From a virus, in the IMG/VR virus record IMGVR_UViG_3300027708_000206, positions 1 to 33,104 of that record: a stretch of DNA of 33,104 bases; one strand, given 5' to 3'. A program made the translations under genes and the position numbers. How positions within the stretch are numbered: position 1 is the first letter of the stretch; every line of letters starts with the position of its first letter. The notes beneath the pieces were generated by a model. The model had not been told where the DNA came from, made no database searches, and was given only the letters and a program-made list of their open reading frames with translations. Shown one piece after another: positions 11,660 through 33,104 of the stretch.

Positions 11660-13357
11660 TTACCAGTTTAGTTGTTTGATTTGTTTCGCTAAAATTGAGC
11701 AATATAAATCATAGCCAGTGCTGTTCATATGTGTGTCATCGGCAGCTAGAGAAGGAGGTATAACTCCACTTACAGAAACGTGATTGGCGTCGTCAGCGGT
11801 CCAAGTTCCTCCCCGACTTACTACATAACTCTGAGCTTGATTTAAAAATAAAGATCTCGCATCAAACCAATACCGAGGAAATGCAGCGGAAATTAAATTA
11901 TTCTGCAATCGCCAATAGTTAACTAGACCATTATAATTATAAATGTTCTGCCCAAACATAGGCAAAATCATTATTTTTTTATTTTTTACTGGAATAAAAT
12001 CAATCATTCCTTGTAATATTTCTATATTTGAATTGTCTGTTGAAGGATTAGATCCTTGTCCATTAGTGCCGACCCAAAAAATTGAAGAAAATTGATTAAG
12101 ATTTAATCCGGTATCGGGATCTATATATTTTGGAGATATAAGATTTGGAGAAGTTGCCGATACAGATTGTCCTGCGTTATTTCTGGTGAAAGTGTAAGTT
12201 GGAGTAGCGGAGGTTCTTTGTAAAGTTCCATCAACGCCATTTACATTTACAGGAATACTAGACGGTCCAAATTGTAAAAAATATAATCCACTATAAAAAC
12301 TTGGCGATGATAAAGCTACTGAAACAGGAGTCGTATCAGATGGGATAGTATTAGATGTAAAAACTCCGCTTATAGCCGCTCCGCCTTGTCTTGCGGCAAT
12401 TTGAAGCGACCTTTCTGAAGTAACACCTTTATTAGAAACTCTCCTTTGTATTCCTAAATCATTTAAAGCGCTAGACAAGCCAGTGCCCATTAATTCAGTC
12501 ATTGAATCTCCCCATTGTGCGATATAAGAATAAGAAGAGGTATCGTTTGATTGGTGAAGGGATTGTCTATTCGGAGCTACAGTTTGTTTAATATTTATAC
12601 TACCTTGCAAGACTCCATTATTAGAAATATTCTGATTCTGAGACATTAATTTACCAGTTATATCAAAAGTATTTAAAAGAGTACCTCCATAATTTTTCAA
12701 ATAAACCGAACAAGTAGAATCGCTGCCGTATATACTAATTAAATTATTAATTAATTTATTCCCTTCGACCCCTAAGCTTTTACTCTTGTTTGTTTTAGCG
12801 ACACGAAAGGGAACGGTAGAGTCATTAGCGAAAAATGGTACTCTATCACATTCTTCTGAATAATTGAAAGTTAAAATATCAGTAAATCCAAAAGACGCAG
12901 TCGAATCGGCGACATACGAATAATCTGCATGGGACACGTCAGTTGTTGCGGGATTTCTACCTTTAGTAAAAAATGTTTGATTAGAAAATGAGTTTTTTGC
13001 ATTTATCGTTCCATACCAATCAAAGGTTGCGCTGACTAAAATGGGAACAAAAGGCTCCACAGAAAAACTTATATTTTTGATATAACAATTATCGATAGAA
13101 ATTCCCGCAAAAGAACAAGGAACTGGATCTTCAGAATTATTTGCCGGAAGTAAATAAGAAGGCAAAGCTCCAGTTAGATAAAATTGAGTATCTAAACTCC
13201 CTATAACTGTATTAGATGGCGCGTATCTCAACAGAGTGCCATCAGATAATAATACTGGTTGTATATTAGTCTGAGCGGCAATTTTAACAGAAGTAGAATA
13301 AAACACTGAATTATTTATTCTGAAATCAATGTTTTCATATTTTATAAATTTGCTCAT
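11660..13357 (-). CDS. Tail-tube-like domain fused to an SGNH/GDSL hydrolase
   Basis: 565 residues. The N-terminal ~240 residues resemble the tube-like proteins nearby: the segment YIKNISFSVEPFVPILVSAT aligns by eye with YLTSFSLSCSVGEVPKTSAS of the 15134-16075 protein. From about residue 275 an SGNH hydrolase begins. Block I is GDSMTE with Ser285, block II Gly311 (NKGVTSERS), block III Asn432 in VGTNGQG, and block V Asp540/His543 in DDTHMNSTGYD. All four invariant residues S, G, N and H are therefore present. SGNH enzymes include carbohydrate and lipid esterases; in phage tails they typically deacetylate surface polysaccharide. Inference: a virion-mounted esterase. It starts by TAATG overlap with the upstream fibre gene. 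The substrate is unknown. Confidence 0.75.
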   Translation of the reverse strand: MSKFIKYENIDFRINNSVFYSTSVKIAAQTNIQPVLLSDGTLLRYAPSNTVIGSLDTQFYLTGALPSYLLPANNSEDPVPCSFAGISIDNCYIKNISFSVEPFVPILVSATFDWYGTINAKNSFSNQTFFTKGRNPATTDVSHADYSYVADSTASFGFTDILTFNYSEECDRVPFFANDSTVPFRVAKTNKSKSLGVEGNKLINNLISIYGSDSTCSVYLKNYGGTLLNTFDITGKLMSQNQNISNNGVLQGSINIKQTVAPNRQSLHQSNDTSSYSYIAQWGDSMTELMGTGLSSALNDLGIQRRVSNKGVTSERSLQIAARQGGAAISGVFTSNTIPSDTTPVSVALSSPSFYSGLYFLQFGPSSIPVNVNGVDGTLQRTSATPTYTFTRNNAGQSVSATSPNLISPKYIDPDTGLNLNQFSSIFWVGTNGQGSNPSTDNSNIEILQGMIDFIPVKNKKIMILPMFGQNIYNYNGLVNYWRLQNNLISAAFPRYWFDARSLFLNQAQSYVVSRGGTWTADDANHVSVSGVIPPSLAADDTHMNSTGYDLYCSILAKQIKQLNW

Positions 13358-15132
13358 TATATTACAGTATAATTTACAGAGCTTGTGATGGTAACTGGGA
13401 CATTTAATCCAGAACCTAATGAGTCATATATTCTATATTGCAAAAGCTGTCCGCTCGCAAATGATGGAGTTCCATTGAAGGAGGTGATTTGTGATATTGA
13501 ATTTTTAGTTAATTGGAAAGAGGCGTAAGCTTTTAAATTTCCACCTACGCTCGGTGGAACTGATCCGCCAGTTGCGGTGATATTTGTAAATCCATCTGAA
13601 GCTACAGTCGCAGGAGTCGTTGCGTAAATCTCAATATATGCAGGATTATTAATTAAAGACACATTGTTAGCGGAAGACATTAATGTGATTTTTTGTATTT
13701 TTCCTGCATAATTTGTAATCGAAAATGGCGATTCTGTATCAAAATTTCCACTTGCTCTGGTGGAAGATCCGTTAACACCTAAAGGATCTATGTAAATATT
13801 TCCAGATCCCGTGAGTCTGGTTTTATAAACTTCAATAAATTTACCTTTGCAGTATGAATTAGCAGTGGTGTAGCTGCCTTGAATATCTAAATTTCCATTA
13901 GTATCTAATGTTAATTCAACAATTGGGCTTGCGCCCAAAATACCATTCTTAACCAAAGCGAAACTATCGGCGTAAGTAGTAGATACGAAATTTCCATATA
14001 AGTTAGCCATCGACCACATTGCGGTAGTATATGTCGGTCCACTTGTCGCTCTTGCTAAAGTAAAAGCGCTTATTCTAGGACCAGTATCTGTTATTGTTTT
14101 ATCAGCAGATACTATAATTTGTGAATTAGTTGGTCCACTAGGACCAGTAGAAGCGAATAAAGCTTGCGTATCTCCAGTGCTAGAAACATGCAAATTGTAT
14201 AATGGAGTAGAAAGTCCCAAGCCCAAATATTTACTGGCGATATCTAAACAAAAAGTATTATCTACACCAGCGGAACTGTTGATAAAATATTTACCATTAA
14301 TTAATCCCACATAAGCTGTGGTATAAGTATTTTTATAACTTTGATAAACGCTGGTGGTATTACTTTGATATCTAGCTGTTTGTCCAGATCCGCTAAGATG
14401 TAATAAATAATTTGGAGTTGTAAAACCAAAACCTACTTTTGGACTATATAAATCATTAATAACATAAACACCATTATGACCGATATTAACGTTGGCGATA
14501 TTATTATAGTTTAAACTTAATACTTCATCTGTTGCGCTCGTTTTTATTTCCGTGTTTGCTGGATCAAAAGTAATAGCGTTATCTGCATTTTTAAACGTTA
14601 CAGTTCCGCCGCTGACAAAAAGACGATCAGTTAAAGGGTTATCAGAATTGTCTATTGCAAAATTTCCACCTGTATCAAATCTGGAAAATTTAGAAAATGT
14701 AGAACCAGAATCGGACGAGTATAAAAAATAAAGATTTGTATCATTAGCGATTTTAGAAAACTGATAATATACATTTGGATCTTGAATGGATAAACCTATC
14801 TGTCTTCCAGAATCAGGAGTGTACATTCGTATTTGGCCTCTACCATTTATCGAATTGACATTATCGGATACGTCAAGAGAAACCAAAGGATTAACATTGT
14901 AAATGCCTACGAATCCATACCCACTCACGCTTAAACCCAAAGTTGAATCGTTGTAGTTGATATTTATTCCGCTAGATGATTTGGCGGTAATAGAATCAAA
15001 TGACTTTGATAATTCTGATAGAGCAATTGAATTATTATTAGCTCCATCTTGGCTAATGATAAGAAAGAGATCTGTAGGACTCGTATTGATACCAGATTGC
15101 GGTGGCAGATTATTTATGTAAATTGGGTCCAT
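13357..15132 (-). CDS. Fibre-like tail protein with repeated G-I/F-G-xx-xP-xx-LHVSG modules
   Basis: 591 residues, rich in Ser, Thr, Asn and Gly. It shows repeated phage fibre-shaft modules such as VGIYNVNPLVSLDVS (about 75-90), VGFGFTTPNYLLHLSG (about 233-248) and LGLGLSTPLYNLHVSS (about 301-316), the pattern usually written GIGTTxPxxxLHVxG. A short collagen-like STGPSGPTN follows. The C-terminal ~170 residues appear beta-rich and could be a small knob. There is no S74 chaperone motif. The start MDPIYINNLPPQSGINT resembles an N-terminal attachment segment. It lies 1 nt after the tube-like gene stop and overlaps the next gene by TAATG. Inferred role: trimeric side fibre. The receptor is unknown. 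Confidence 0.6.
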   Translation of the reverse strand: MDPIYINNLPPQSGINTSPTDLFLIISQDGANNNSIALSELSKSFDSITAKSSSGININYNDSTLGLSVSGYGFVGIYNVNPLVSLDVSDNVNSINGRGQIRMYTPDSGRQIGLSIQDPNVYYQFSKIANDTNLYFLYSSDSGSTFSKFSRFDTGGNFAIDNSDNPLTDRLFVSGGTVTFKNADNAITFDPANTEIKTSATDEVLSLNYNNIANVNIGHNGVYVINDLYSPKVGFGFTTPNYLLHLSGSGQTARYQSNTTSVYQSYKNTYTTAYVGLINGKYFINSSAGVDNTFCLDIASKYLGLGLSTPLYNLHVSSTGDTQALFASTGPSGPTNSQIIVSADKTITDTGPRISAFTLARATSGPTYTTAMWSMANLYGNFVSTTYADSFALVKNGILGASPIVELTLDTNGNLDIQGSYTTANSYCKGKFIEVYKTRLTGSGNIYIDPLGVNGSSTRASGNFDTESPFSITNYAGKIQKITLMSSANNVSLINNPAYIEIYATTPATVASDGFTNITATGGSVPPSVGGNLKAYASFQLTKNSISQITSFNGTPSFASGQLLQYRIYDSLGSGLNVPVTITSSVNYTVI

Positions 15133-15133
15133 A

Positions 15134-16075
15134 TTAATTTATAAGGTAACCTTTATACCCTAGTTTTACACTTAAAAACTGATCTGTTGTTGAACTAAAT
15201 TCTTGCGATACTAATTTCATGTTAGATAATGAAGCGCTAAAAATAGTTGGAGGATTATTTACCTTACCTAATCCTATAGGTCCAGCGGGAGTTGATAAAA
15301 TGTTATTTCCAACGGCAGCTATCTGATCAGCAAGAAGTGTACCTTTTATATTAACGGCGAAACTCACGTCTGTATCTGATGTAATTTGATCGTAAATTGT
15401 TGTTACTTGATAATCATCAATGTCCATATTTACTGACGCATTAATTTCTATAGGCATTTCGGCGAGGACTTCCACGGGGATGTAGCTTATTTGATTTGTG
15501 GGGCCGCTCGGACCCGTTGGGCCCGAAGCAGGAGCATTTTGCAAGGCGTAAATAGGTTTTTTAGGGCAATTTATTTGATAATCAAAAGAGGTAATTCTGT
15601 TTGTGGTTGATCCGTTGCATGTCAAACTTATATCTTTTATTTGCGGAACTGACACATAAGGTCTGGGTGCATTTCCTGAATTAGAAAGACCCTTACCAAA
15701 ATCTCCGAAGACTTGTATGGAAGCGCTGGTTTTAGGAACTTCCCCAACTGAACAACTGAGTGAAAAACTAGTTAAATAACCCTTAGTAAATCCAATACAC
15801 CTGTTGTTATAATGAATGCTTCCGGCTAAACTTGATGCGGTTTTATCAGCTTTTTCGCCGGTATAATTTAAAAACGGTTCATTATATAGCAAATACTTAC
15901 TAACGGTAACTTGACCATTTGGCACTTGCGCCATCACCTGTTTATTGTATCCAACGCCGATAGTATTTATCGCCGAATAGTTAACAGTGTATCCGCCATT
16001 AACAGATAGAATACCAGAAAGGTTTGCGCCATTAAGGTAGAACTGTTGCTCATTATTTGTAATTCCGCCTTTCAT
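15134..16075 (-). CDS. Tail-tube-like protein (minor tube/distal tail-like)
   Basis: 313 residues. The segment GYLTSFSLSCSVGEVPKTSA (about 99-118) is strikingly like GFINEYTFDATVGQIPKASI in the major tail protein (27330-28679), with shared G-x-x-x-x-(F/Y)-x4-VG-x-(V/I)-PK-(T/A)-S. The N-terminus (FYLNGANLSGILSVNGGYTV) and C-terminal beta strands fit a tube-protein or distal-tail-ring fold. It lies directly after the tape measure gene (2-nt gap), where siphophages often encode the distal tail protein. A Pro/Gly-rich insert, GPTGPSGPTN, sits near residue 185. Inference: forms a ring or terminal tube segment between the tube and the hub. The fold assignment is by eye only. Confidence 0.55.
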   Translation of the reverse strand: MKGGITNNEQQFYLNGANLSGILSVNGGYTVNYSAINTIGVGYNKQVMAQVPNGQVTVSKYLLYNEPFLNYTGEKADKTASSLAGSIHYNNRCIGFTKGYLTSFSLSCSVGEVPKTSASIQVFGDFGKGLSNSGNAPRPYVSVPQIKDISLTCNGSTTNRITSFDYQINCPKKPIYALQNAPASGPTGPSGPTNQISYIPVEVLAEMPIEINASVNMDIDDYQVTTIYDQITSDTDVSFAVNIKGTLLADQIAAVGNNILSTPAGPIGLGKVNNPPTIFSASLSNMKLVSQEFSSTTDQFLSVKLGYKGYLIN

Positions 16076-19000: not shown

Positions 19001-22000
19001 GTTTGAGTTAAAGTTTTTAACTTTCCCTTATAAATAGAATCTGTTATAGTTTTTAAATTGTTATAAAAAAACTGCGAATATTCACCAGTAGAACTTTGTA
19101 AATTTTCTATCTCTTTCACAAATGCTTCAACATCAACTCCCTCAAATTTTCTTTCACCTAAAAGATCTTTTATCTTTTCTGGACGTTGAATTTTTTTATT
19201 AAACTCATCAGTATCATCACCTAACGCATCTTGTATTTTTCTTAAATTTTCAAAGAATGCATTGTTTTGAAGTATTATTTTTTGATAATTTTCTTTAATC
19301 GGAGCCAATTTTTCATTTCCTTCGATATAATAAGGTTTAGACTCGTACGTTTTAGTTTCAGGATTAAAAACTCTTCGAGTTCTAGTAAGCATTTCTTTTT
19401 TTACGGTCAATTCTCCAGTTTTCTCAATATTAAAAAGACTTAAAGAATTACGTTTTTTAAAAGCTAATTCTTCTGTGTCAGCTAATTCTTTTTGTTTCGC
19501 TTTTAATTTAAATTCTCCGAGAACCTTATTTAAATCTTTAGTGTTATCGCCTAAAGCTTCGAAAGATTTGCCCAATTCTGTTCCTTGAAGTTTTGAAAAA
19601 TATTCAGTCAATTTAAGAGCCGTATCTTGTCCTTCTAAACTCTTGGGGTCAATATTTTTTATGATAGAAAAAGTATCAATAACTCCTTGAGCAGCTTGCG
19701 CTGTTTCTTCGTTTTTTCTTTTTTGATTTTCTAAAGCTTTTCCCATATCTTCTATCGATGTCTTTGAATTATAAGCTGCAATTCCTAAGCCTGTTAAACC
19801 TCCAATAACAGCACCAACCGCAGTACCAACAATAGGAATAGCTGAACCAATAGCTGCTCCTGTAGAAACGCCCGTTAATACTGAACTAGCTGCCGATCCT
19901 GCGAATCTTTGCCCATAAGAAAGCTCTTCTCTGGGTTTTCCTTGGGTAATAGCTTGTTCAATCAAACCACCAACTACTGGAGCGGCCATTTGAAATCCAA
20001 AATTGTTAGTTAATTTACCGATTTTATCTTCAAATCCTTTTACTTTATCAAAAGAAGATTCGCCACCTCTTGCATAAGCGGTTCTAGCTAAGAAAGATGA
20101 TTTTTGTCTTTCTTCTATTTTTTGTTGTGCCGCTGCCGCTTGTTGTGCCGCTGCTTGTTGTGCCGCTGCTTGAGCAGCGGTTCTTTCTGCTTTAGCGTGA
20201 TCCAGAGCAGCTCTTCTTACTTCATTAAAACTTGCTGCATTCAATTTGAACGCGGGTAACAAAGTCTGTGTCAAATAATCGCTAATTTGTTTGTTAGTTG
20301 TGGCAGACAAATCAATGCTTTTTATATAATTATTGATTGCATCATTTATTTTTTTATGAGAAACTGATCCACTGCTAGCGCTTTGCAAAGAAGTTCCAGT
20401 TATATCAAAATCCGCAAAATTAGGAATAAAACCTCTACTCATTAAACCAGCCATCTTCTGATTGTTTAAAGAATCCGATAACGCTTGGTTTAATCCACCA
20501 TGATCAGCAATTGCAGATTCAAAACTAGGCTGACCAGAATTACGAACGTGAGGAAAAGGATTAGTATCGAATACGGCTTTATTGCCGCTCATACCCTCTT
20601 CCAACTGCATTACGCCTTGTTGATAAGCGAAATTAGGAATAAATCCGTTAGCAGCGTTTTTAATTAATGTATGTTTCCATTCTCTAGGGGGATCAAAATA
20701 TTTATTCTTTTTATTTTCTGAATATACTCTTCTGAATTTATCTTGAATGTCTGCGTTATCAACTTGTCCACCTTTCATTTCAAAAAGGACATTTTCAATT
20801 GGATCAAGAGCGTCAACCGCAGCGCTTTTGCCACGACGTAATCCTGCTTGAACATTAGATAGTAGATCAGGATATCGCGGTCTTAAAATATTAGCAGCAT
20901 ATTTTTCATAAGCATCTCCAAAATCTGTAGATTTATCATAATCTTTATCAGTTATATGCCTTCCATTCACTAAGAAACGAATAATTTCAGTGGAATATCC
21001 TCTTCTTATAACAGCATCTTCTTTAGCTTGTTCGCGAGCGATAGCTTCATTTTTAGTAGCTGAATTTGGAGTCCATTTTTGGTCTCCTAAATTATCCCGA
21101 ATATCTTGTATAGGAACTCCAAATGAATGAGCGGCATTAGCTGAGGGCCCCTTTAATCTTAATATACCCTTGCTAGAAAGATACCCTTGAAGAGTAGCAA
21201 AATTAGGAATAAAACCGCCAGAAGAAACAGCTTCTGCTTGGGGACCTTTTCTTTGCAAAACTAAAGGAGGAGCGAATAAATAACCATAAATATCTTTTTT
21301 GTTATTTAATGAAGTACCTGAAGCTATAGACTTTTTCAAAGCCAGAGTTAATTGATTTCGCTTACCAGTATTATAATTTTCTGCAATACCTCTTAAAAAT
21401 TTCTGCTTAACATCTTCAAGCGTCCAATCTTCAAAACCAGACGCATCATCGCTTTTGACTTCAGCCAAAGATATTTTGTCTCCCTCTACTTTATACCCAT
21501 CAATAGAAGAACTCCGTTTATAAGCAAGATAGTTAGAGCTTTTATCAAACTTTGTGATATTATTATCGTATAATACTCTGTTTTCATATTTTTGAAAAGA
21601 TTCTCCTTTTTCTCGTTTAAAAGCTTTTTGATCGGGACCGTGAATCTCAAAAAAAGAAGGATCAAAACCTCTTAAACGCTTTGCCATAGCAACTCTGCCT
21701 TCCGTTTCTTTCGCAAAATTAGGAACAAATCCTCCTGACGCATAAGGATCGACACCAGTTCTAGCTATAGAGTTCTGTCTATGCGCTTGTCCAGCTTGAG
21801 AATTCGCAGGAGGATTTATAAAAGGCTGTGCAAAACCCGGCACATATTTAATACTCTCCGCAGTATTCATCACTCCACCAACTGGAGAATTAACAATTTG
21901 ACCGGGAGTGTATCCACCCGCTCTTGCACCAATCGCTTCAGCCATTTTATCAGACTGTGGAATATAACCACCGCTAGATTTCACTCCAAGCCCTCTATTT

Positions 22001-23535
22001 CCCACGTTAACGCCTGAAGAACTTAATGATACTGAAAGTTTTTGAGCTAATTGAGCTTGTAATTCATATTGAGCTGTCTGCGCTCTAGCGAGATTTAATA
22101 ATATATTAGCCTGAGCAGCCTGATTGCCCGTGTTTATAGCAAGTTCTTGAGAAATAGGATTTTGACTTTGCATGATCTGCAAAATCGCCGCTTCAATATT
22201 TTTTCTATTCTGAGTTTCAGTTGTTATGCCTGCTATCTGAGGAAGAACTTGAGCAACATAAGTGAACGAAGTCTGTATCAGTTTAAAAAGTGTATAAAAT
22301 GCAGCGATTGCCCCCGGTCCAGCTAATAAGTTTCTAATACCTTTTAAAAAGCCATTAGCAAAATCAGATCCAACACCTTCTCCTTGTAATATATCATTAA
22401 AAGCTTCAATTACTGATTTAGCCGTGCCCGCTGCTGATTTAGCTAAAGGTTCGAAGGTTACTTTACCAATATTAGCAGCTAATTGAGTAGACGCCGTTGA
22501 TGTTTGAGAGAGTAAAGAGGAAAGTGTTTGATTTAATTGCGCAGTAGCGGCATCCGCTTCGTTAGTGGCGTCAGCTCCCTTTTTTAATGAACTAGCATAA
22601 ACGCTGTTGGAAGAGTTTAAATCATTTACTAAAGATTTTAAAATGTTAACTTGATAAACGCCCGCAACTTGTTCTGAAAGTTGCGCTCTTTGTGACGAAG
22701 CTAATGTTTTATAAGATTGAGCGAAATTCTGTAAAATATTAACCGCTGGTAACGTATTGCCTTCAACATCTCTTACAGCGATATTGTAAGCTTCTAATTG
22801 ATCAAGAGTTTCTGAGCGCTGTAAACGAGTAAATATAGACTTAAGAGCGTTACCGATCACAGCGCCACCGCGAGCAGTGGTTTGTTGTGCGGTAGTTACC
22901 AAAGCATTCAACTGATCAAAACTGACATTAGCTTCTGATGCCGCTTGACCTGTACGAGTAAGAGCTTCAGAAAGATCTCCTGCGCTTACGCTAAAAGATT
23001 GTTCAACTGCAACCAATTTATTCAAAACTATGCTTGAATTTAAATTTTCTTTAGTGAAATTGTTTACAGTCGCCGTTAAAGCTTCTACTGCATCTTGAGT
23101 GGAAACCCCAGCTAATCTAGTTAACGTCAATGCGTCTTTGGTGCGAATTAAAGTTTCTTCCGCTTTTATACCTTGGCGAGAAAATTCCAAAGCAGCTTTC
23201 GAAGCTTCAGCAAACGAAGACGACGTTTGTTTGGTGACTTCAAATAATTGGCTGCTATATTTTTGAAGCTGATTAGTAGATAATCCTAAAACACGATTGA
23301 TATCAGTAAGATTTTTTTCAACTTCAATAGTAGCATCCGCTAATTCTTTAAAACCTCTTATCGCCGTTCCTAATACCGCCGTGGAAGCGCCGAATGCGAT
23401 AACGCGGGCATTCGATGCCGCTAACGCTGCGTCGAAGTCTTTAACGTTACCAGTAATTTTGCCAAGCGGTTGAGAAAATGAATTTGCATTAATCTGCAAA
23501 TTTAAATTAGTAGGTACATTTAGTGTTACTGCCAT
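16078..23535 (-). CDS. Tail tape measure protein with two inserted PD-(D/E)XK nuclease-like domains
   Basis: 2485 residues. Residues about 50-400 match the TP901-type tape measure core (ATIEVEKNLTDINRVLGLST, FSVSAGDLSEAL, TTARGGAVIGNALKSIFTRL). Hydrophobic segments lie near 405-440 and 1215-1260 (VGTAVGAVIGGLTGLGIAAY). Long coiled-coil helices fill about 1265-2140. A typical C-terminal GSGDKYPAMLENGEYVLNRN motif lies near 2190. Between residues about 598 and 1040 four GF(I/V)PNFA repeats fence two inserts with nuclease-like cores: Asp679...Glu692-x-Lys694 and Asp908...Glu919-x-Lys921. The tape measure sets tail length (about 1.5 angstrom per residue, so up to roughly 370 nm if all residues count) and enters the host envelope during ejection. 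It follows the chaperone genes, 25 nt downstream. The tape measure call is firm; nuclease activity is inferred. Confidence 0.92.
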   Translation of the reverse strand: MAVTLNVPTNLNLQINANSFSQPLGKITGNVKDFDAALAASNARVIAFGASTAVLGTAIRGFKELADATIEVEKNLTDINRVLGLSTNQLQKYSSQLFEVTKQTSSSFAEASKAALEFSRQGIKAEETLIRTKDALTLTRLAGVSTQDAVEALTATVNNFTKENLNSSIVLNKLVAVEQSFSVSAGDLSEALTRTGQAASEANVSFDQLNALVTTAQQTTARGGAVIGNALKSIFTRLQRSETLDQLEAYNIAVRDVEGNTLPAVNILQNFAQSYKTLASSQRAQLSEQVAGVYQVNILKSLVNDLNSSNSVYASSLKKGADATNEADAATAQLNQTLSSLLSQTSTASTQLAANIGKVTFEPLAKSAAGTAKSVIEAFNDILQGEGVGSDFANGFLKGIRNLLAGPGAIAAFYTLFKLIQTSFTYVAQVLPQIAGITTETQNRKNIEAAILQIMQSQNPISQELAINTGNQAAQANILLNLARAQTAQYELQAQLAQKLSVSLSSSGVNVGNRGLGVKSSGGYIPQSDKMAEAIGARAGGYTPGQIVNSPVGGVMNTAESIKYVPGFAQPFINPPANSQAGQAHRQNSIARTGVDPYASGGFVPNFAKETEGRVAMAKRLRGFDPSFFEIHGPDQKAFKREKGESFQKYENRVLYDNNITKFDKSSNYLAYKRSSSIDGYKVEGDKISLAEVKSDDASGFEDWTLEDVKQKFLRGIAENYNTGKRNQLTLALKKSIASGTSLNNKKDIYGYLFAPPLVLQRKGPQAEAVSSGGFIPNFATLQGYLSSKGILRLKGPSANAAHSFGVPIQDIRDNLGDQKWTPNSATKNEAIAREQAKEDAVIRRGYSTEIIRFLVNGRHITDKDYDKSTDFGDAYEKYAANILRPRYPDLLSNVQAGLRRGKSAAVDALDPIENVLFEMKGGQVDNADIQDKFRRVYSENKKNKYFDPPREWKHTLIKNAANGFIPNFAYQQGVMQLEEGMSGNKAVFDTNPFPHVRNSGQPSFESAIADHGGLNQALSDSLNNQKMAGLMSRGFIPNFADFDITGTSLQSASSGSVSHKKINDAINNYIKSIDLSATTNKQISDYLTQTLLPAFKLNAASFNEVRRAALDHAKAERTAAQAAAQQAAAQQAAAAQQKIEERQKSSFLARTAYARGGESSFDKVKGFEDKIGKLTNNFGFQMAAPVVGGLIEQAITQGKPREELSYGQRFAGSAASSVLTGVSTGAAIGSAIPIVGTAVGAVIGGLTGLGIAAYNSKTSIEDMGKALENQKRKNEETAQAAQGVIDTFSIIKNIDPKSLEGQDTALKLTEYFSKLQGTELGKSFEALGDNTKDLNKVLGEFKLKAKQKELADTEELAFKKRNSLSLFNIEKTGELTVKKEMLTRTRRVFNPETKTYESKPYYIEGNEKLAPIKENYQKIILQNNAFFENLRKIQDALGDDTDEFNKKIQRPEKIKDLLGERKFEGVDVEAFVKEIENLQSSTGEYSQFFYNNLKTITDSIYKGKLKTLTQTVTAKAAEGFNSRQLIEKLDDSIKEYVFNTAKQIQKLQFDSSRLEVLQSAANEFLDKFIGPASASLSEISMKRQKLQNTQQEERLSFTSNVSENVGKKLGDVLGGGSKDILEKQINPLLNKMQTFGGANDVIKSLKESTSSIEKAKNAGFVAKDEKSLKALNEEIDKLLKTSGTLSTKFDLQNNQQNLEISIMERRSALAQTLLDITIKLIDVEAERTMMLDREATAREIQNIREKSAIERPGFGFNLPPTQTQNIKNTIEKAALERNQTTQREALFKDSGPILQGRLDAVKANLRSALPSANDPLFESLIGSLTSLEGINTDNVNSFNDYLDVLDKIETALEPLKAGNKDIYETIVKEIVAAQKLAKEQEKQNISFEEGAKTLNQRAEIETALNKLYVDRIKLILDNQKAEEKAANAADINLQKLETYQNRAANFYGLGISGKAESQINYNNKKLEENQKKLEIQNTKQIRSNLEEFKKYQSTIGSSTSITGPAKQSVLGINADIKNTSDAERLANDLAEVGSNMAAGSEDRKKLADFEKQIRSILQSQTSELEKQREVQDIINEAVKQEASDRKSFKVGLAAGFNQMRTDSEETLNKVGKEAPILFRDGMVDAIKAAIKESHNLGSALMGIASKFVDEISTTLMRGAVGNILGSMGIQNLFSTGKQAGEVIHAQNGMFVSGTGSGDKYPAMLENGEYVLNRNAVATLGGPSALDSFNFRAAPRFATGGATNFELTNLNRIRQPYQLSVIPELESQMTTYGAENSVEYNRLRDEARTIAADQRQKKLQRQSQMAALIGSVVAGVASIGISKGLNYKPQGSYNSSTAGKLEMAASGQGGSEEMMVLPPGHKQSGGSIGSRLSDTIPHFMNGGMLDSPIVQKYGTRMQSGGSSLLASGGNSSTVNNNNSNTSNAFNFAVNVDRTGKIDLGKNQTSYEQKDVEFSKNMSTELYGAVLKVIANERRFGGSLAGLKNK
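20122..20169 (-). repeat. 15-bp tandem repeat encoding an Ala/Gln tract in the tape measure gene
   Basis: The unit TTGTTGTGCCGCTGC (plus-strand spelling) occurs at 20122-20136, 20140-20154 and 20155-20169, with a 3-nt CGC spacer after the first copy. It encodes AQQAA-type residues at about 1122-1138, inside a helical segment. Gain or loss of a unit would change the protein by five residues in frame. Confidence 0.8.
20415..21745 (-). repeat. Four dispersed GF(I/V)PNFA repeats flanking nuclease-like inserts
   Basis: Copies lie near plus-strand 21716-21745 (ASGGFVPNFA), 21199-21228 (SSGGFIPNFA), 20629-20658 (AANGFIPNFA) and 20415-20443 (SRGFIPNFA). Even the DNA is conserved: each contains GC(A/G)AAATTAGGAA(T/C)AAA (plus-strand spelling). 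Copies 1-2 bracket the first nuclease-like insert and copies 2-3 the second; copies 3-4 bracket a short segment without a recognisable enzyme core. A related SGGYIPQS occurs earlier, near residue 521. Confidence 0.8.
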
Positions 23536-25370: not shown

Positions 25371-25826
25371 ATGGGCACAAGTATTTTATCTGTGGATCAA
25401 AAGGCCGCGCTTAATTCGGCGCTTGATGATATGCATCAAACGTTTGCGCGTGATATCTTCGTCTTCAAAGAAGCTTCTCACACTGTGATTTCTACGGATT
25501 CCAATTACAATCCGTATTACAATGTTGCTGGTCAAACCACGTCTATTGTAAACACGCCCGTTTCCGGTCAATTCAAAGCTAGAATTCAATATAATGATGA
25601 TTTCAAAAAAGAATACTGGAGCGAAGTAAAATCAGAATCCCAAATCAAACTAGCGACAGTAAAAGGTTCTGTAAGATTAAAAATAGACTTAACTGCTTAC
25701 GCGTTTATTAAAGATTCTAAAAGATTTGATATTGATGGTGGTAGATTTGTCTTAGATTCGACTTTTAGAGGGCATGGCCTTTTTGATGTTAAATACTACA
25801 CTCTGTATCTAAAACCTGACGTATAA
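25371..25826 (+). CDS. Head-tail connector/stopper-like protein
   Basis: 151 residues. The N-terminal ~30 residues are helical (LSVDQKAALNSALDDMHQTF). A beta-rich remainder follows with QFKARIQYNDDFKKEY, VRLKIDLTAYAFIKDSKRF and a FRGHGLFDVKYYTLYLKP ending. The short helix plus small beta barrel fits stopper/neck proteins that close the portal below the adaptor, though no signature residue makes this certain. It is the first of four tightly packed plus-strand genes that end with the major tail protein, the usual connector-to-tube order. A 1-nt gap separates it from the next gene. It starts from an ATG with no Shine-Dalgarno. It could alternatively be a minor head completion protein. Confidence 0.45.
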   Translation: MGTSILSVDQKAALNSALDDMHQTFARDIFVFKEASHTVISTDSNYNPYYNVAGQTTSIVNTPVSGQFKARIQYNDDFKKEYWSEVKSESQIKLATVKGSVRLKIDLTAYAFIKDSKRFDIDGGRFVLDSTFRGHGLFDVKYYTLYLKPDV

Positions 25827-25827
25827 A

Positions 25828-26412
25828 ATGGATAATGATGTATTAGCTATATTAAAATTTTTGCAAAGCGACAGAAGCTTCATGGCGGAAGTTGAATCTA
25901 AATTCGAAAACGAATTCAAAAGAATTAAATCAGAAATGATATATGATTTCGTCACCCACGCTGTAACTATGGAGTTAGATGGCGGCAATTCCGCAGCTAA
26001 TATTTCGGGCACATTAGGCGGAATCACGAATTTATATTCTTTTATCGGATTTAACGATGGAGAAAACCCGACAAGAGCTATTAGAGAAATGTTGGAAGCG
26101 TCTACTTTTAATTTAAGAACTCTATCAAATGGTGATTTCGAATTCACCGCCAACATTCCAACAGCTAAAGATATTTTTAATAAAACCCCTATGCCTTGGG
26201 CGGAAGGTAGAAGTTGGGCGCAAGGTATTGAATTAGGCATTTCTGGTTTAGGTTATTATTTAAAAGGTCTAAATTCTAAAAGCCGTTCTGGATCTGGCAT
26301 TCAATCACAAGACCAAGTAAGACAAGCTCGGTTTAAAAACATTTCTTACATATCTGAGCTTATCAATATATATAATAAAAAATTTAAACAACTACAGAAA
26401 ATTTCACTATGA
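25828..26412 (+). CDS. Neck/tail-completion-like protein
   Basis: 194 residues. An N-terminal helical stretch (FMAEVESKFENEFKRIKSEM) is followed by a mixed alpha/beta core. A conserved-looking segment, PMPWAEGRSWAQGIELGISG (about 114-133), precedes SRSGSGIQSQDQVRQ and a C-terminal helix (YISELINIYNKKFKQLQKI). The arrangement recalls the HK97-gp10/neck family that bridges connector and tail tube, but the family is not assigned with certainty. It overlaps the next gene by ATGA, suggesting translational coupling. Position between a stopper-like and a terminator-like gene supports a neck role. Confidence 0.45.
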   Translation: MDNDVLAILKFLQSDRSFMAEVESKFENEFKRIKSEMIYDFVTHAVTMELDGGNSAANISGTLGGITNLYSFIGFNDGENPTRAIREMLEASTFNLRTLSNGDFEFTANIPTAKDIFNKTPMPWAEGRSWAQGIELGISGLGYYLKGLNSKSRSGSGIQSQDQVRQARFKNISYISELINIYNKKFKQLQKISL

Positions 26413-27269
26413 AGCCTACGTTTTCGCATAATTTAATGAATAGTTTTATACTATGGTTTGATAACTTCTTGCTTAAAAAAGCAGATGCATATAAAACATA
26501 TACAACAAACTTTTATAACTACACAGACGATAGATTAGGTGGAGGTAAGGTCGTTTACGGCAGCCCTTTTAAACAATGGGTATATGACAAAGGAATTACT
26601 GGCGCAACTGTGCCTTCTGGAGTTTATATAAATAACGCTTTCGTTCCGACAGGTACAAGCGGAATGTTATTTGATTATGATAATGGGCGTGTTATTTTTA
26701 ACAGCGGCGTTTCAACTAATCTTAATATCAGTGGCACGTATTCTGTTAAAGAATTAAATACATATATAACAAATGATCCAGAAGACAGGATAATCATCGA
26801 GAACAAATACGAACCTAATAACCGATTTACAGTTTTATCGAATTATATTCCTCCATACAAGCCTGTAACTCCAGCGGTTTTCTGTTCGATGGAGGGCATA
26901 ACAAATGATCCTTTTGCTTATGGCGGCGAAGATCAAACAACAAGCAGAATAAAAGCTGTACTATTATGTGACAGTTTGTATCAGTTAGACGGCGCGTTAT
27001 CTGTATTTTCTGATTCTTTATATACTGTATTTAGTCAAATACCTATGACTTCGCATCCTATCGCTGAATTTGGAAGCGTAAAAACAGGATTGTTCCCCAC
27101 TGGCTACAGTTTTGATGTGTTGGATACGTCTTATAATTCTCAGAGATTTTTTATTACAGAAGCGCGATCATCTAAGATTCGCGATAATTTGCAAAAAGAA
27201 TTAAATCCCACAACTTATATTGGTTTCGTCGATTTTGAAATCAAAACCTTTCGATACCCTAGGATTTAA
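26409..27269 (+). CDS. Tail terminator/tail completion-like protein
   Basis: 286 residues. The N-terminus begins with a helix (LMNSFILWFDNFLLKKADAY). A beta-rich domain with FDYDNGRVIFNSGVSTNLNI follows. The later core contains AVFCSMEGITNDPFAYGGED and the helix LYQLDGALSVFSDSLYTVFS. The C-terminus (TTYIGFVDFEIKTFRYPRI) ends in beta strands. Immediately upstream of the tube gene, this slot normally encodes the tail terminator that caps the tube and joins it to the head. The role rests on position; no diagnostic motif was recognised. It is longer than most terminators. Confidence 0.4.
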   Translation: MKPTFSHNLMNSFILWFDNFLLKKADAYKTYTTNFYNYTDDRLGGGKVVYGSPFKQWVYDKGITGATVPSGVYINNAFVPTGTSGMLFDYDNGRVIFNSGVSTNLNISGTYSVKELNTYITNDPEDRIIIENKYEPNNRFTVLSNYIPPYKPVTPAVFCSMEGITNDPFAYGGEDQTTSRIKAVLLCDSLYQLDGALSVFSDSLYTVFSQIPMTSHPIAEFGSVKTGLFPTGYSFDVLDTSYNSQRFFITEARSSKIRDNLQKELNPTTYIGFVDFEIKTFRYPRI

Positions 27270-27329
27270 AAATTTCACAACGATGTGTATACACTGTAAA
27301 AACTATTAACAATTTAACTAATATATATT
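27270..27329 (+). promoter_or_regulatory. 60-nt leader before the major tail gene with a GTGTATACAC palindrome
   Basis: The perfect 10-bp palindrome GTGTATACAC lies at 27285-27294, followed by TGTAAAAACTATT and an A/T-rich stretch to the ATG at 27330. This is the largest gap inside the plus-strand block and precedes what should be its most highly expressed gene, so a promoter or operator is plausible. TTCACA (27275-27280) with a weak TAAAAA 17 nt later is the best sigma-70-like match, and it is poor. Confidence 0.3.
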
Positions 27330-28679
27330 ATGGCAAGAAATCGTGTTATTTATCAAAGTCAAGCCCTTTTCCTAGCCCCCAGCTCTACTGGTGTACAGGT
27401 TAGTGGTGTAAATTCTGCTGGCACTGGCCCCACAACCTATTCCAGCGTTCCGGGTGCTACTGCTCCAGTAAGCACAGGCTCACTAGCTTCAGGTATTTCA
27501 TTACTTAAGAAACTAGATCGCGTACAATCCATCAATTTTAACTTAACCATTAATCGCAAAGATATTAATGAGTTTGGTAAACTAGCTCGTCTCGATTCAA
27601 TCGTTGTAGAATCGCCAACTGTAGGTCTTGATTTCGATTTTTATGTTACAGATGGTATGAATGAAAGATTGCTTGGTTTTAATATGTATGATAGCCGTGA
27701 TAGCCAAACCATTCAAGGTATTCAAGCTATTTCTGGACTAATCGCCGACACTCAAGGAAACAACTATTACATTCCAACCTTTGATGAAGGCGAAGACGTA
27801 GTTGGCGGCAGTTTAAAACCCTCCACTACTGTAGTAGCGATTGGTAATGGTTTCATTAATGAATATACTTTTGATGCCACCGTCGGTCAAATTCCCAAGG
27901 CATCAATTAAAGTCGAAGCGTTCAATATCAAATCGGATTACGCTGATGCTCCTGTAACACTAACAGCTAACGCAAGTCCTGCTGGCTCTGTAGGAGCTGA
28001 CCTACTGACCATTACAGGAACCAGTCCTGCAATTAACATTCTTTCTTCGCCGATATCTAAATACTCCGATGTTGGAACCTCTTATAAAATCGATCAATAC
28101 AGAAATTTCACTGGAGTTGGTTATACGAGCATCAACAGCAGCGGATTGTTCACGACCGGAAGCAGCTTGATCACAGCTCTTCGCCCCGGCGATCTGATCT
28201 TGTCATTATCTAATCTTACCGATACGATGAATGATCTTGGAACTTCACACGTTCAGTCGTTTAAATTCACTCTACCTCTAAAGAGAACCATATTACAACG
28301 TCTTGGTAATACATTCGGTTATGCTCGTATTATCGACGTTCCTATTAATATGGATTTCACTATCAGCGCAATCGTTTCTGAACTAAGAAGCCAAAACATC
28401 TACGATCAATTGGGTTCTCCTACTAAGAAAAACATGACTGTCACCCTTAATGATCCTAATGGCAACGCTAAGGTTTCATTTGGATTGTCAGGAGCCATCT
28501 TCAAGAGCGAATCGTTCTCAGAAGGCATCGGTGACAATCAAAAAGTTGATTTCACTTACGGCATTCAAATAGGTGGATCAAACGATCAATCAAATGGTCT
28601 ATTCATGTCAGGTAGCTATGGAGCTTATACTGACGCCATCACATCTGGATACTTCAAGTTGGGCACTGGTAAGCTCTAA
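27330..28679 (+). CDS. Major tail tube protein
   Basis: 449 residues. After an N-terminal arm (MARNRVIYQSQALFLAPSST) the core reads VQSINFNLTINRKDINEFGK, then LDSIVVESPTVGLDFDFYVT, typical of tube-protein strands. GFINEYTFDATVGQIPKASI lies near residues 189-208. A second half (from about 280) repeats a similar strand order, including ARIIDVPINMDFTISAIVSE. It is the last gene of the plus-strand block, directly before a strong terminator. Codons use more C and G than the neighbours, consistent with high expression. Hexamers or trimers of this protein would stack around the tape measure. It may contain two tube-fold copies or a tube fold plus a surface domain. Confidence 0.78.
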   Translation: MARNRVIYQSQALFLAPSSTGVQVSGVNSAGTGPTTYSSVPGATAPVSTGSLASGISLLKKLDRVQSINFNLTINRKDINEFGKLARLDSIVVESPTVGLDFDFYVTDGMNERLLGFNMYDSRDSQTIQGIQAISGLIADTQGNNYYIPTFDEGEDVVGGSLKPSTTVVAIGNGFINEYTFDATVGQIPKASIKVEAFNIKSDYADAPVTLTANASPAGSVGADLLTITGTSPAINILSSPISKYSDVGTSYKIDQYRNFTGVGYTSINSSGLFTTGSSLITALRPGDLILSLSNLTDTMNDLGTSHVQSFKFTLPLKRTILQRLGNTFGYARIIDVPINMDFTISAIVSELRSQNIYDQLGSPTKKNMTVTLNDPNGNAKVSFGLSGAIFKSESFSEGIGDNQKVDFTYGIQIGGSNDQSNGLFMSGSYGAYTDAITSGYFKLGTGKL

Positions 28680-30700: not shown

Positions 30701-33104
30701 TTATAATGATCCTATAGTTCCTGTCGATCCCGTGACTACTAAATGATATATATTTCCTACATTCATATTTACACCTGTTTTTTCTGCTTGTTGCTCAAAA
30801 TCTACTAATAATTCTTTATATGATGGTTTTAAAATTAAATTATACAAAGAGTATCTGGGAGAAGAAAGTAGTATTCCTTGTTCATCTATAGCGAAGGAAT
30901 CTTGAAAAGCTTGATTTACGAAAAAATTATAATCTGTTCTTCTTGGAATGGTTAAAAGAATACCGTCTTCATTCAAACTAAATGTCTCAAAAAAAAAATT
31001 ACCGCCAAAAGCCGCAGCCACATAAGGAAATAATCCCGCAGAAATAGATGCCCATACATAATTCGCTCCGTCATATTTTAAATAAGTATTTGCGGTTGTT
31101 GCCGCTGGTAGAGAAAATCCAGAAGTTCCACTAGATCCAGACGTACCGCTCGAACCGGAAGTTCCAGCCGAATAAGAACTATAATCCAAAATATTTACAT
31201 AAACTCTCGAAACTGAATCGCTTAAATAAGATCCAGATGGCTGACTAGAAACAGTCATTTTTCTTATTTTTACAGAAGAATCGTTTAATTTTTGGACTCC
31301 ATAGTCAACATTTAGATCATTTAAACCGCCAATCGAGCCTATGTATTTTGTGGCTAGTTGAGTAGCTGAATTTTGGAAAGCTGAAGTTGCAGTGGAGAAT
31401 GCTCCAGTATATCTTCCCACTCCTTTTGTAACTCTTAATTCATCAATAAATCCTTTGAAAGAATAATAAGCTCCGGGAGCTTGAGAAACATCCATTCCAA
31501 TATAACATCCAGTTTGAGTGAAGTTAGTGCTGCTGGCGGCGGATACTCCTGAAACTCCATTAACAAAGCATCTCAATACAGAAGAGTTTCTTGAGACAGC
31601 GATGTGATTCCACTGATTTATAGAAACAGGAATGGAAGAGGTTTCCACTAAAGAGTCAGTATATACTACTGGATATAAAGTATTACTTATTCCAAAGAAA
31701 ATTGCACTAGCTGTAGTTGCCGCTGTTGTTCTAGTTGTGAACATTGAAGCTACAACTGCTGATGGAGCAGCTGTTGGATAAATCCAACCTTCAATAGTAA
31801 AATCTCCAGTTCCAAATGCGGTCGCTTGGGTTGGCTGCGCATAAACCGTGTCTGTATTATTTGTGAAATAAGAGCTAGCGCTACCAAACTTAAACTGCCC
31901 ATAGTTTAAAAATACTCCAGAATTTATTAAATTTAAACCACTTGGGCCGTTATCTATAAAATTCCCACTAGAATTTAAACCATCAAAATGGCATAATAAA
32001 CTTATATTATTATAATAAGGGTCAGCGACGCCAGAATCCCATTCTTCTACTATTTTAACGTCCCATTTATTTGAAGATAAGTTTAATCCCGATATGGTAG
32101 CTTCGCTATTAAGAGTGAAGTTCGTGAAGACGCTTTGAGTTACTGCTATTCCACTTTGATTTACCCAAGCAAAATCATAATTAGCGCTAGAAGCTTTCGC
32201 TAAAACTTGATTAACTGTTCCGCCAGTTGGAAGACCTACCCCAGAAGAACCAGAAGTTCCAGATGATCCGCTGGTTCCAGAAGAACCAGAGCTTCCGCTG
32301 GCGCCAGAAGAACCGCTTGAACCAGAAGATCCAGATGACCCACTAACGCCAGAAGATCCAGATGAGCCAGAGCTTCCATTAATGCCAGAAGAGCCGCTTG
32401 ATCCGTTAGTTCCAGAAAATCCAGATGATCCACTAACACCAGAAGACCCAGAGCTTCCACTAATGCCAGAAGAACCGCTTGATCCATTAGTTCCAGAAGA
32501 ACCAGAAGACCCGTTTAGTCCGCTGGTTCCAGAAGAGCCAGAGTTTCCGCTGGTCCCAGAAGAGCCGTCGGTTCCTGAAGTGCCGCTCGATCCAGAAGTG
32601 CCACTTGAGCCATTAAACGAGGTTAATACTAAAATAATAGCATGATTATTTGCGAATTCCGGCGACCCTCCACTATTCAAATAAGTTACAGGGTATATCC
32701 AATAAGTGCTCGTATTTATTATTTGAGAAGGCGTCCCTGTGACAGTCCATTTTTGAAAGTTATTAGAATTATTTTCATCTTGGATGATTAAAATTTGACC
32801 CACACTAATTAATGATAAAAATATATCTATGTCAGTTTCTGGCTTATCCGTTAAGTGACTAACTATTATTTGAGTTGCGCTTATTTGTGTAGTATTATTC
32901 CAAATAATATATCCAGCAGACGGAGCGCCAGAAGTGCTTGATCCTTTAGTTTTATATGGAAAATAAGAACTTGAAATACCATTAATACCTGAAGTGCCGC
33001 TCGATCCAGAAGAACCACTTGAGCCAGAAGATCCAGACGAACCAGAAGATCCGCTAGTTCCGCTGGTACCACTCGAACCGTTAGTACCGCTGGTTCCATT
33101 AACG
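30701..33104 (-). CDS. Collagen-like LamG fibre protein (N-terminus cut by right edge)
   Basis: The minus-strand frame is open from the stop at 30701 to the right edge, about 800 residues; a GTG at 32803 is an internal codon, not the start. From the edge inward there is a Gly-Ser-Ser repeat and then a ~95-residue beta module (GYIIWNNTTQISATQIIVSH ... WIYPVTYLNSGG). A long collagen-like repeat follows, then a linker GLPTGGTVNQVLAKASSANY. Next is a LamG/concanavalin domain (about 31390-32010) with FTIEGWIYPT and FIDELRVTKGVGRYTGAF. A third short GTS/GSS run follows, then two tandem ~30-residue units near the C-terminus (SLNEDGILLTIPRRTDYNFF and AIDEQGILLSSPRYSLYNLI). Inference: trimeric fibre or capsid appendage with a glycan-binding module. 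Confidence 0.85.
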   Translation of the reverse strand, partial: VNGTSGTNGSSGTSGTSGSSGSSGSSGSSGSSGSSGTSGINGISSSYFPYKTKGSSTSGAPSAGYIIWNNTTQISATQIIVSHLTDKPETDIDIFLSLISVGQILIIQDENNSNNFQKWTVTGTPSQIINTSTYWIYPVTYLNSGGSPEFANNHAIILVLTSFNGSSGTSGSSGTSGTDGSSGTSGNSGSSGTSGLNGSSGSSGTNGSSGSSGISGSSGSSGVSGSSGFSGTNGSSGSSGINGSSGSSGSSGVSGSSGSSGSSGSSGASGSSGSSGTSGSSGTSGSSGVGLPTGGTVNQVLAKASSANYDFAWVNQSGIAVTQSVFTNFTLNSEATISGLNLSSNKWDVKIVEEWDSGVADPYYNNISLLCHFDGLNSSGNFIDNGPSGLNLINSGVFLNYGQFKFGSASSYFTNNTDTVYAQPTQATAFGTGDFTIEGWIYPTAAPSAVVASMFTTRTTAATTASAIFFGISNTLYPVVYTDSLVETSSIPVSINQWNHIAVSRNSSVLRCFVNGVSGVSAASSTNFTQTGCYIGMDVSQAPGAYYSFKGFIDELRVTKGVGRYTGAFSTATSAFQNSATQLATKYIGSIGGLNDLNVDYGVQKLNDSSVKIRKMTVSSQPSGSYLSDSVSRVYVNILDYSSYSAGTSGSSGTSGSSGTSGFSLPAATTANTYLKYDGANYVWASISAGLFPYVAAAFGGNFFFETFSLNEDGILLTIPRRTDYNFFVNQAFQDSFAIDEQGILLSSPRYSLYNLILKPSYKELLVDFEQQAEKTGVNMNVGNIYHLVVTGSTGTIGSL
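32240..32612 (-). repeat. Collagen-like Gly-X-Y triplet repeat (coding)
   Basis: About 120 residues of GSS, GTS, GVS, GIN and GFS triplets. It is more varied in the third position than the left-edge repeat (GTNGSS, GINGSS, GLNGSS occur). A second segment of the same gene at about 32990-33104 continues off the right edge. Confidence 0.85.

Follow-up and report, generated by a model that had tools for sequence, protein, structure and literature searches.

Why does a phage tape measure protein (TMP) contain domains that resemble nucleases, and what might they do there? The question is raised by a 33,104-base linear virus fragment from IMG/VR (the window), whose tail module is of the lambda-like siphophage type and lies on the minus strand.

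A tape measure protein with bordered inserts

The ORF that carries the inserts is a TMP, as a preliminary description of this DNA had stated. It contains a PhageMin_Tail domain (2.1e-26 at residues 100–292, Pfam) and matches 11 PHROG TMP families, the best at 7.1e-40. Its gene neighbours carry Phage_min_tail, Phage_tail_L and Phage-tail_3 (Pfam), which places the TMP domain within a tail module. The preliminary description had put two inserts at about residues 607–770 and 780–960 and had read in them the elements of PD-(D/E)XK nucleases. Two inserts are present, with limits refined here to residues 609–773 and 781–963, and all the motifs it named were found at their residues in the 2485-aa ORF (Table 1). 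Insert 1 has GESFQKYENRVL at residue 644, D679, E692/K694 and, after the ExK, DVKQKFLRGIAEN at residue 708. Insert 2 has GDAYEKYAANIL at residue 873, D908, E919/K921 and, after the ExK, DIQDKFRRVYSEN at residue 929. In both inserts the α-helix E, the catalytic D and the (D/E)xK come in the PD-(D/E)XK order; insert 1 has an unusual helix around E651. We refer to the inserts as cassettes.

Table 1. Positions in the window of the tape measure gene and its parts, with the evidence for each
Feature	Position	Strand	Evidence
Tape measure protein (TMP), P0001, 2485 aa	16078-23535	(-)	ORF, Pfam, PHROG
N-terminal TMP domain PhageMin_Tail, conserved, residues 100-292	22660-23238	(-)	Pfam
Probable decayed tag copy GYIPQSD, residues 523-529, upstream of first intact copy	21949-21969	(-)	sequence
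Tag copy 1, GFVPNFA, residues 602-608, borders cassette 1 on its upstream side	21712-21732	(-)	sequence
Cassette 1 (insert 1), PD-(D/E)XK-like, residues 609-773; E651, D679, E692, K694	21217-21711	(-)	relatives, profile homology
Tag copy 2, GFIPNFA, residues 774-780	21196-21216	(-)	sequence
Cassette 2 (insert 2), residues 781-963, predicted PD-(D/E)XK core 863-961	20647-21195	(-)	relatives, AlphaFold, Foldseek
Tag copy 3, GFIPNFA, residues 964-970	20626-20646	(-)	sequence
Terminal element (insert 3), 64 aa, residues 971-1034, between tags 3 and 4	20434-20625	(-)	relatives
Tag copy 4, GFIPNFA, residues 1035-1041, bounds the cassette zone downstream	20413-20433	(-)	sequence

Elsewhere in the window, three sizeable ORFs (313, 591 and 565 aa) separate the TMP from the Phage_min_tail protein (13357-16075 and 11660-13357, minus strand) and have no confident family; the 565-aa ORF has a weak GDSL-lipase match (0.025). 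A four-ORF plus-strand block (25371-28679), also with no confident family, stands amid the minus-strand tail genes. A fibre-like ORF (30701-32803, minus strand) has its best PHROG matches in collagen-like tail fibre and baseplate wedge families.

The inserts are bordered exactly by a short tag, G-[FY]-[IV]-P-N-F-A, which the preliminary description had overlooked together with the third, 64-aa element, with copies at residues 602, 774, 964 and 1035 of the window TMP; none of the four copies would be expected by chance (0 in 100 shuffles). Similarity to related TMPs ends at the final residue of tag copy 1. The GYIPQSD upstream of this copy reads as a probable decayed tag, and in relatives an intact GFIPNFA/S stands about 80 residues ahead of the first cassette (e.g. 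at residue 540 in both L108 and L114; related loci carry L numbers here). Viral contigs were scanned for the tag with a pattern of 14 fixed bases. The first scan gave at least 120 tag loci, which, except for about ten chance matches, lie in long ORFs, usually with 2–7 copies each; with the second scan the set now holds at least 195 tag-bearing ORFs, at least 170 of them with two or more copies. Because both sets were chosen by the tag, its frequency in them is no estimate for phages at large, and the contigs are not independent samples. The ORFs with two or more tag copies represent at least about 170 TMP genes of uncultured phages besides that of the window. Where the 5′ end is complete, the commonest location of the first copy is around residue 630, and PhageMin_Tail was found in 8 of the 8 N-termini tested among tag-bearing ORFs. 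Relatives were reached only via the tag and via alignments A2 and A3; neither insert 1 nor the entire TMP, used as query, returned close relatives.

The terminal element is 69–72% identical in alignment A4 and nearly always stands ahead of the last tag. Its consensus in the window group, PFPHIRN.QPTF..AI.DHGGL, is strongly conserved, and other phage groups have at the same place an unrelated-looking A..RE.AAGVP.SQIYVD...NPMGL.V.N.RDEP. Searches with this element, using patterns that lack the PNFA core, though the alignment includes tag residues, found at least 66 viral relatives with the same cassette layout. The element was absent from all cultured phages searched, and its only match in the genome collection was L207, a 3960-base MAG contig labelled Proteobacteria. 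This contig is probably stray (misbinned) phage DNA and was not taken as evidence of a host.

Exchange and content of the cassettes

The preliminary description had suggested that related phages might carry swapped inserts at the same place, and the relatives go well beyond this proposal, with the same slots holding different cassettes. In 41 relatives, TMP residues 11–600 are 59–73% identical to the window, the cassette zone 9–26% and the C-terminus 25–35%. The window and L093 share 68% identity over residues 11–608 and none beyond, and BLASTP matches between TMPs begin at a tag or end at its last residue (tag +6). A cassette of the insert-2 type occupies slot 3 in L124, slot 2 in L123 and slot 2 in L122, each time with different neighbours; the corresponding residues are L124 987-1161, L123 863-1037 and L122 832-1006. 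The genes of L265 and L264/L266 are 95–96% identical in nucleotides to nt 4051, and identity then resumes past an extra L265 cassette of 176 aa (528 bp), cleanly gained or lost, with a junction overlap of 26 nt that is the tag. Between L265 and L266 the cassette dS is 0.036–0.08 vs an N-terminal dS of 0.25; the lower cassette value indicates that the exchange of cassettes postdates the divergence of the backbone. Exchange of cassettes between phages is well supported by these comparisons.

A pair of linked profile families of the PD-(D/E)XK-like type accounts for 97 of the 204 non-redundant cassettes examined, and reversed cassettes, used as a control, gave 0 matches to these profiles. The common cassette type A7 also has D...(E/D)xK, judged by eye. 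Matches above the Pfam cut-off identify an SNase cassette (L100, 2.3e-9), GNAT acetyltransferase cassettes (L061 and L046) and a cassette with a cytidyltransferase-associated domain (L048); those to a GHKL ATPase (L024) and to P-loop ATPases fall below it. In L122, a relative of the window TMP, the slot 1 cassette groups with SNase, and slot 1 of the window holds a PD-(D/E)XK-like cassette; unrelated nuclease folds therefore occupy the same slot.

Two further loci deserve description. The extra cassette of L265 (9473-10000) has no Pfam match, and by eye its GFGVPLYDSVL...LTSDR resembles a GNAT acetyl-CoA loop. L125 (7911-8366 and 10398-10745) has an insert-2-like nuclease core in its first cassette, which also has a P-loop (GAGKTT), and a second, later nuclease cassette intermediate between inserts 1 and 2.

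It is conceivable that the cassettes serve the phage's own DNA by cutting, holding or processing the leading end of the genome during packaging or ejection. TMP-borne nuclease domains would lie near the genome end in the virion, which counts for this reading. Furthermore, PD-(D/E)XK nucleases process virion DNA elsewhere, as in the T4 gp4-like head-completion proteins (PMC7824862). A maintenance role should be conserved, however, whereas the cassettes swap, come and go between nearly identical phages and share their slots with non-nuclease domains, and we consider such a role unlikely.

A purely structural role, in which dead nuclease folds dock to the tube, chaperones or tail tip and the tag is an assembly signal, would agree with the conservation of the tag's protein sequence across all cassettes and with the near-constant place of the terminal element before the final tag. 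The metal-binding residues are nevertheless retained. Moreover, among 42 complete TMPs, the window included, the cassette zone ranges from 406 to 1006 aa (CV 0.30) vs a CV of 0.058 for the remaining TMP, and this length varies independently of the backbone, unlike that of a structural spacer; we regard a structural role as rather unlikely. As for the tag itself, codon identity is 0.63 vs a background of 0.55, and since this excess is only modest, there is no need to assume a DNA-level site. The tag probably acts at the protein level, perhaps as a docking turn or perhaps as a processing site, and may incidentally provide homology for recombination.

The cassettes might also be selfish nuclease modules of little use to the phage, spreading in a homing-like manner by cutting cassette-less TMP alleles. 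PD-(D/E)XK homing enzymes exist, the cassette content is nuclease-rich, and presence and absence are clean at a repeated site. Homing nucleases are also described as marking the boundaries of phage genetic exchange (PMC10448857). Against this, GNAT, P-loop and cytidyltransferase-associated cassettes sit in the same slots, neither HNH nor GIY-YIG patterns were found among the cassettes, and the cassettes lie in frame within a virion protein. A selfish spread of this kind seems to us quite improbable.

The inserts and the PD-(D/E)XK superfamily

The preliminary description had expected the D and ExK to hold in homologues. For either insert, every close relative keeps these residues and the helix E. 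The cassette 1 residues are the same in L055, L116 and 4 further loci, and insert-1 relatives retain GES..YE, DG, ExKS and the helix DVKxKFLR...ENY. Relatives of insert 2 retain G..YE, VDA.D, FExK and KF. Among the key residues of cassette 2 (G873, E877, D908, E919, K921 and K933), E877 and D908 are invariant across 83 sequences, a set selected partly by motif, and 90% or more of these also have G873, K921 and K933. The dN/dS between close insert-2 cassettes is 0.12–0.20; as read from substitutions, the cassettes are shown to be under purifying selection.

The two inserts had also been taken for diverged copies. In pairwise comparison this fails, as 152 of 1000 shuffles score as well, but it stands at the profile level. 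The cassette HMMs were built on tag-free cassettes, as the tag itself otherwise contaminates iterations. An insert-1 profile of 3 sequences finds insert 2 with an E of 1.4e-4 (hmmsearch), and when nine TMP segments are scored with a profile made without the window and its close relatives, insert 2 (7.6e-7) comes out on top, followed by insert 1 (0.0018), with the other seven at 0.35 or worse. An hhalign comparison of the small insert-1 and insert-2 profiles gives only 38% probability, and we base the homology on the hmmsearch profiles, not on direct alignment or hhalign. The group-A profile also matches 11 pieces defined as 'backbone', which probably come from truncated ORFs.

With 17 sequences, AlphaFold modelled only a core of insert 2 with confidence. 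The trimmed insert-2 core with 83 sequences gave a pLDDT of 79.5 and a pTM of 0.71, with the order helix–strand–strand–helix–strand. A combined two-domain alignment for folding was dropped, as it placed insert-1 relatives on insert 2. For insert 2, the insert modelled, the predicted core follows the α-β-β-α-β order of the fold anticipated by the preliminary description, but Foldseek finds no single structure match below 1e-3 for this core. Among the best 50 PDB chains in Foldseek, 23 are PD-(D/E)XK proteins as classed by protein names; these neighbours include the DdmD nuclease domain, Cas4 SSO0001, VSR, HincII and CdiA-CT, and also R.BspD6I, influenza PA and bunyavirus L. Neighbours in the Foldseek viral library are TnsA-like, exonuclease, resolvase and DUF559 proteins. 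Neither insert has a sequence match in Pfam, PHROG or PDB. PDB sequence-profile matches to a lectin, a terminase small subunit and a penicillin acylase are short or partial, cover only part of the core and were dismissed as chance. PADLOC found nothing, and NCBIfam gave scattered single weak matches, one of them to EcnA nuclease at 6.8e-5.

The inserts share with the PD-(D/E)XK superfamily the order α-E, D, (D/E)xK, helix and strand, the invariant catalytic residues and, for insert 2, a predicted core topology. They differ in that no named family detectably resembles them in sequence and in sitting inside a TMP, between GFIPNFA tags. From sequence and model together, we think it very likely that they belong to this superfamily, the fold itself being a prediction. 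Nuclease-family membership of the cassettes is well supported, and their enzyme activity is putative. It is highly improbable that the motifs are coincidental and the inserts only variable filler of the TMP, lacking a nuclease fold: the window sequence itself has no significant family or structure match, but the residues are conserved in a set of 83 sequences, both inserts are recovered by an independent profile, and the modelled fold order is accompanied by PD-(D/E)XK enrichment among structural neighbours.

Possible delivery of cassettes through the tail

We favour, with some confidence, a reading of the TMP as a modular cargo carrier whose swapped, nuclease-rich cassettes are delivered during infection. 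Its layout would consist of about 600 conserved N-terminal residues, a cassette zone between tags, the 64-aa element and the C-terminal TMP part. Domains of 100–190 aa, if folded, would have to fit in the tail tube beside the TMP, and the window's cargo would be the two PD-(D/E)XK nuclease-like domains. Whole cassettes would be gained, lost and swapped by recombination at the 21-nt tag. The TMP lies in the tail tube and exits ahead of or together with the DNA, and because of this exit the cassette domains would most likely enter the host at injection. Once inside, they may immediately exert nuclease activity, with host nucleic acid, resident or competing elements, or a defence system as possible targets; we infer both the delivery and such targets, host or competitor DNA among them. 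The lambda TMP is labelled by the inner-membrane host protein ManZ during injection and helps the DNA cross that membrane (PMC13190303). If the TMP of this group behaves like lambda's, its cargo would reach the cytoplasm or the site of DNA entry before any phage gene is expressed. The pairing of fast cassette turnover with purifying selection resembles an arms race against hosts or competitors. No candidate immunity or self-protection gene was found by Pfam among the neighbouring ORFs, and protection of the phage's own DNA may rest on specificity, DNA modification, RNA targets or inactivity within the virion. More tentatively, we propose that a large group of uncultured tailed phages possesses an exchangeable cargo rack, loaded mostly with nucleases, in which the GFIPNFA signal either docks the cassettes or frees them as separate enzymes.

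The closest prior ideas are polyvalent proteins, MuF toxins and Sle1 effectors, none of which, in the accessible portions of the sources, includes tag-delimited internal TMP cassettes. MuF polymorphic toxins are likewise virion-linked, variable proteins, often with nuclease effectors and proposed to be phage-delivered (PMC5576092). They are head/portal-associated and carry a single toxin at the C-terminus, usually followed by a small ORF for which an immunity function has been proposed, whereas the window has several internal cassettes in a TMP and no identified immunity gene. The TMP N-terminus has no Pfam match to a MuF domain and is PhageMin_Tail. Polymorphic toxin systems pair a constant trafficking part with exchangeable toxin domains; the window group has a constant N-terminus and exchangeable cassettes, whose trafficking and toxicity are putative. 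Polyvalent proteins combine several enzymes in one large mosaic chain that is believed to accompany the phage DNA at injection; they are not TMPs, 'tape measure' being absent from the paper's wording, and the accessible text describes no uniform inter-domain tag (PMC5512222). The Sle1-type effectors of actinobacterial contractile injection systems are TMP-related and have a highly variable functional domain, and one of them is toxic, probably acting on nucleic acids; they differ in belonging to a bacterial injection system and in their single C-terminal domain, with no tag-delimited internal cassettes described in the part of the paper available (PMC13277306). TMPs with peptidoglycan hydrolase domains, such as SPbeta YomI, annotated as a transglycosylase, share the TMP-embedded enzyme domain, but this is a cell-wall hydrolase for entry and not a swappable nuclease set. 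In the open literature searched, we found no earlier description of a PNFA tag in connection with tape measure proteins or of tag-delimited TMP cassettes.

If the cargo reading is correct, the tail ruler, usually seen as a passive spacer and DNA conduit, would be an evolvable vehicle with plug-in enzyme slots. A simple tag search would then lead to hundreds of candidate injected effectors, many of them with no family assignment, and the tag would show where cassettes can naturally be delimited for work on their expression, structure and delivery. The cassettes may in this way open a route to studying how siphophages affect the cell as infection begins.
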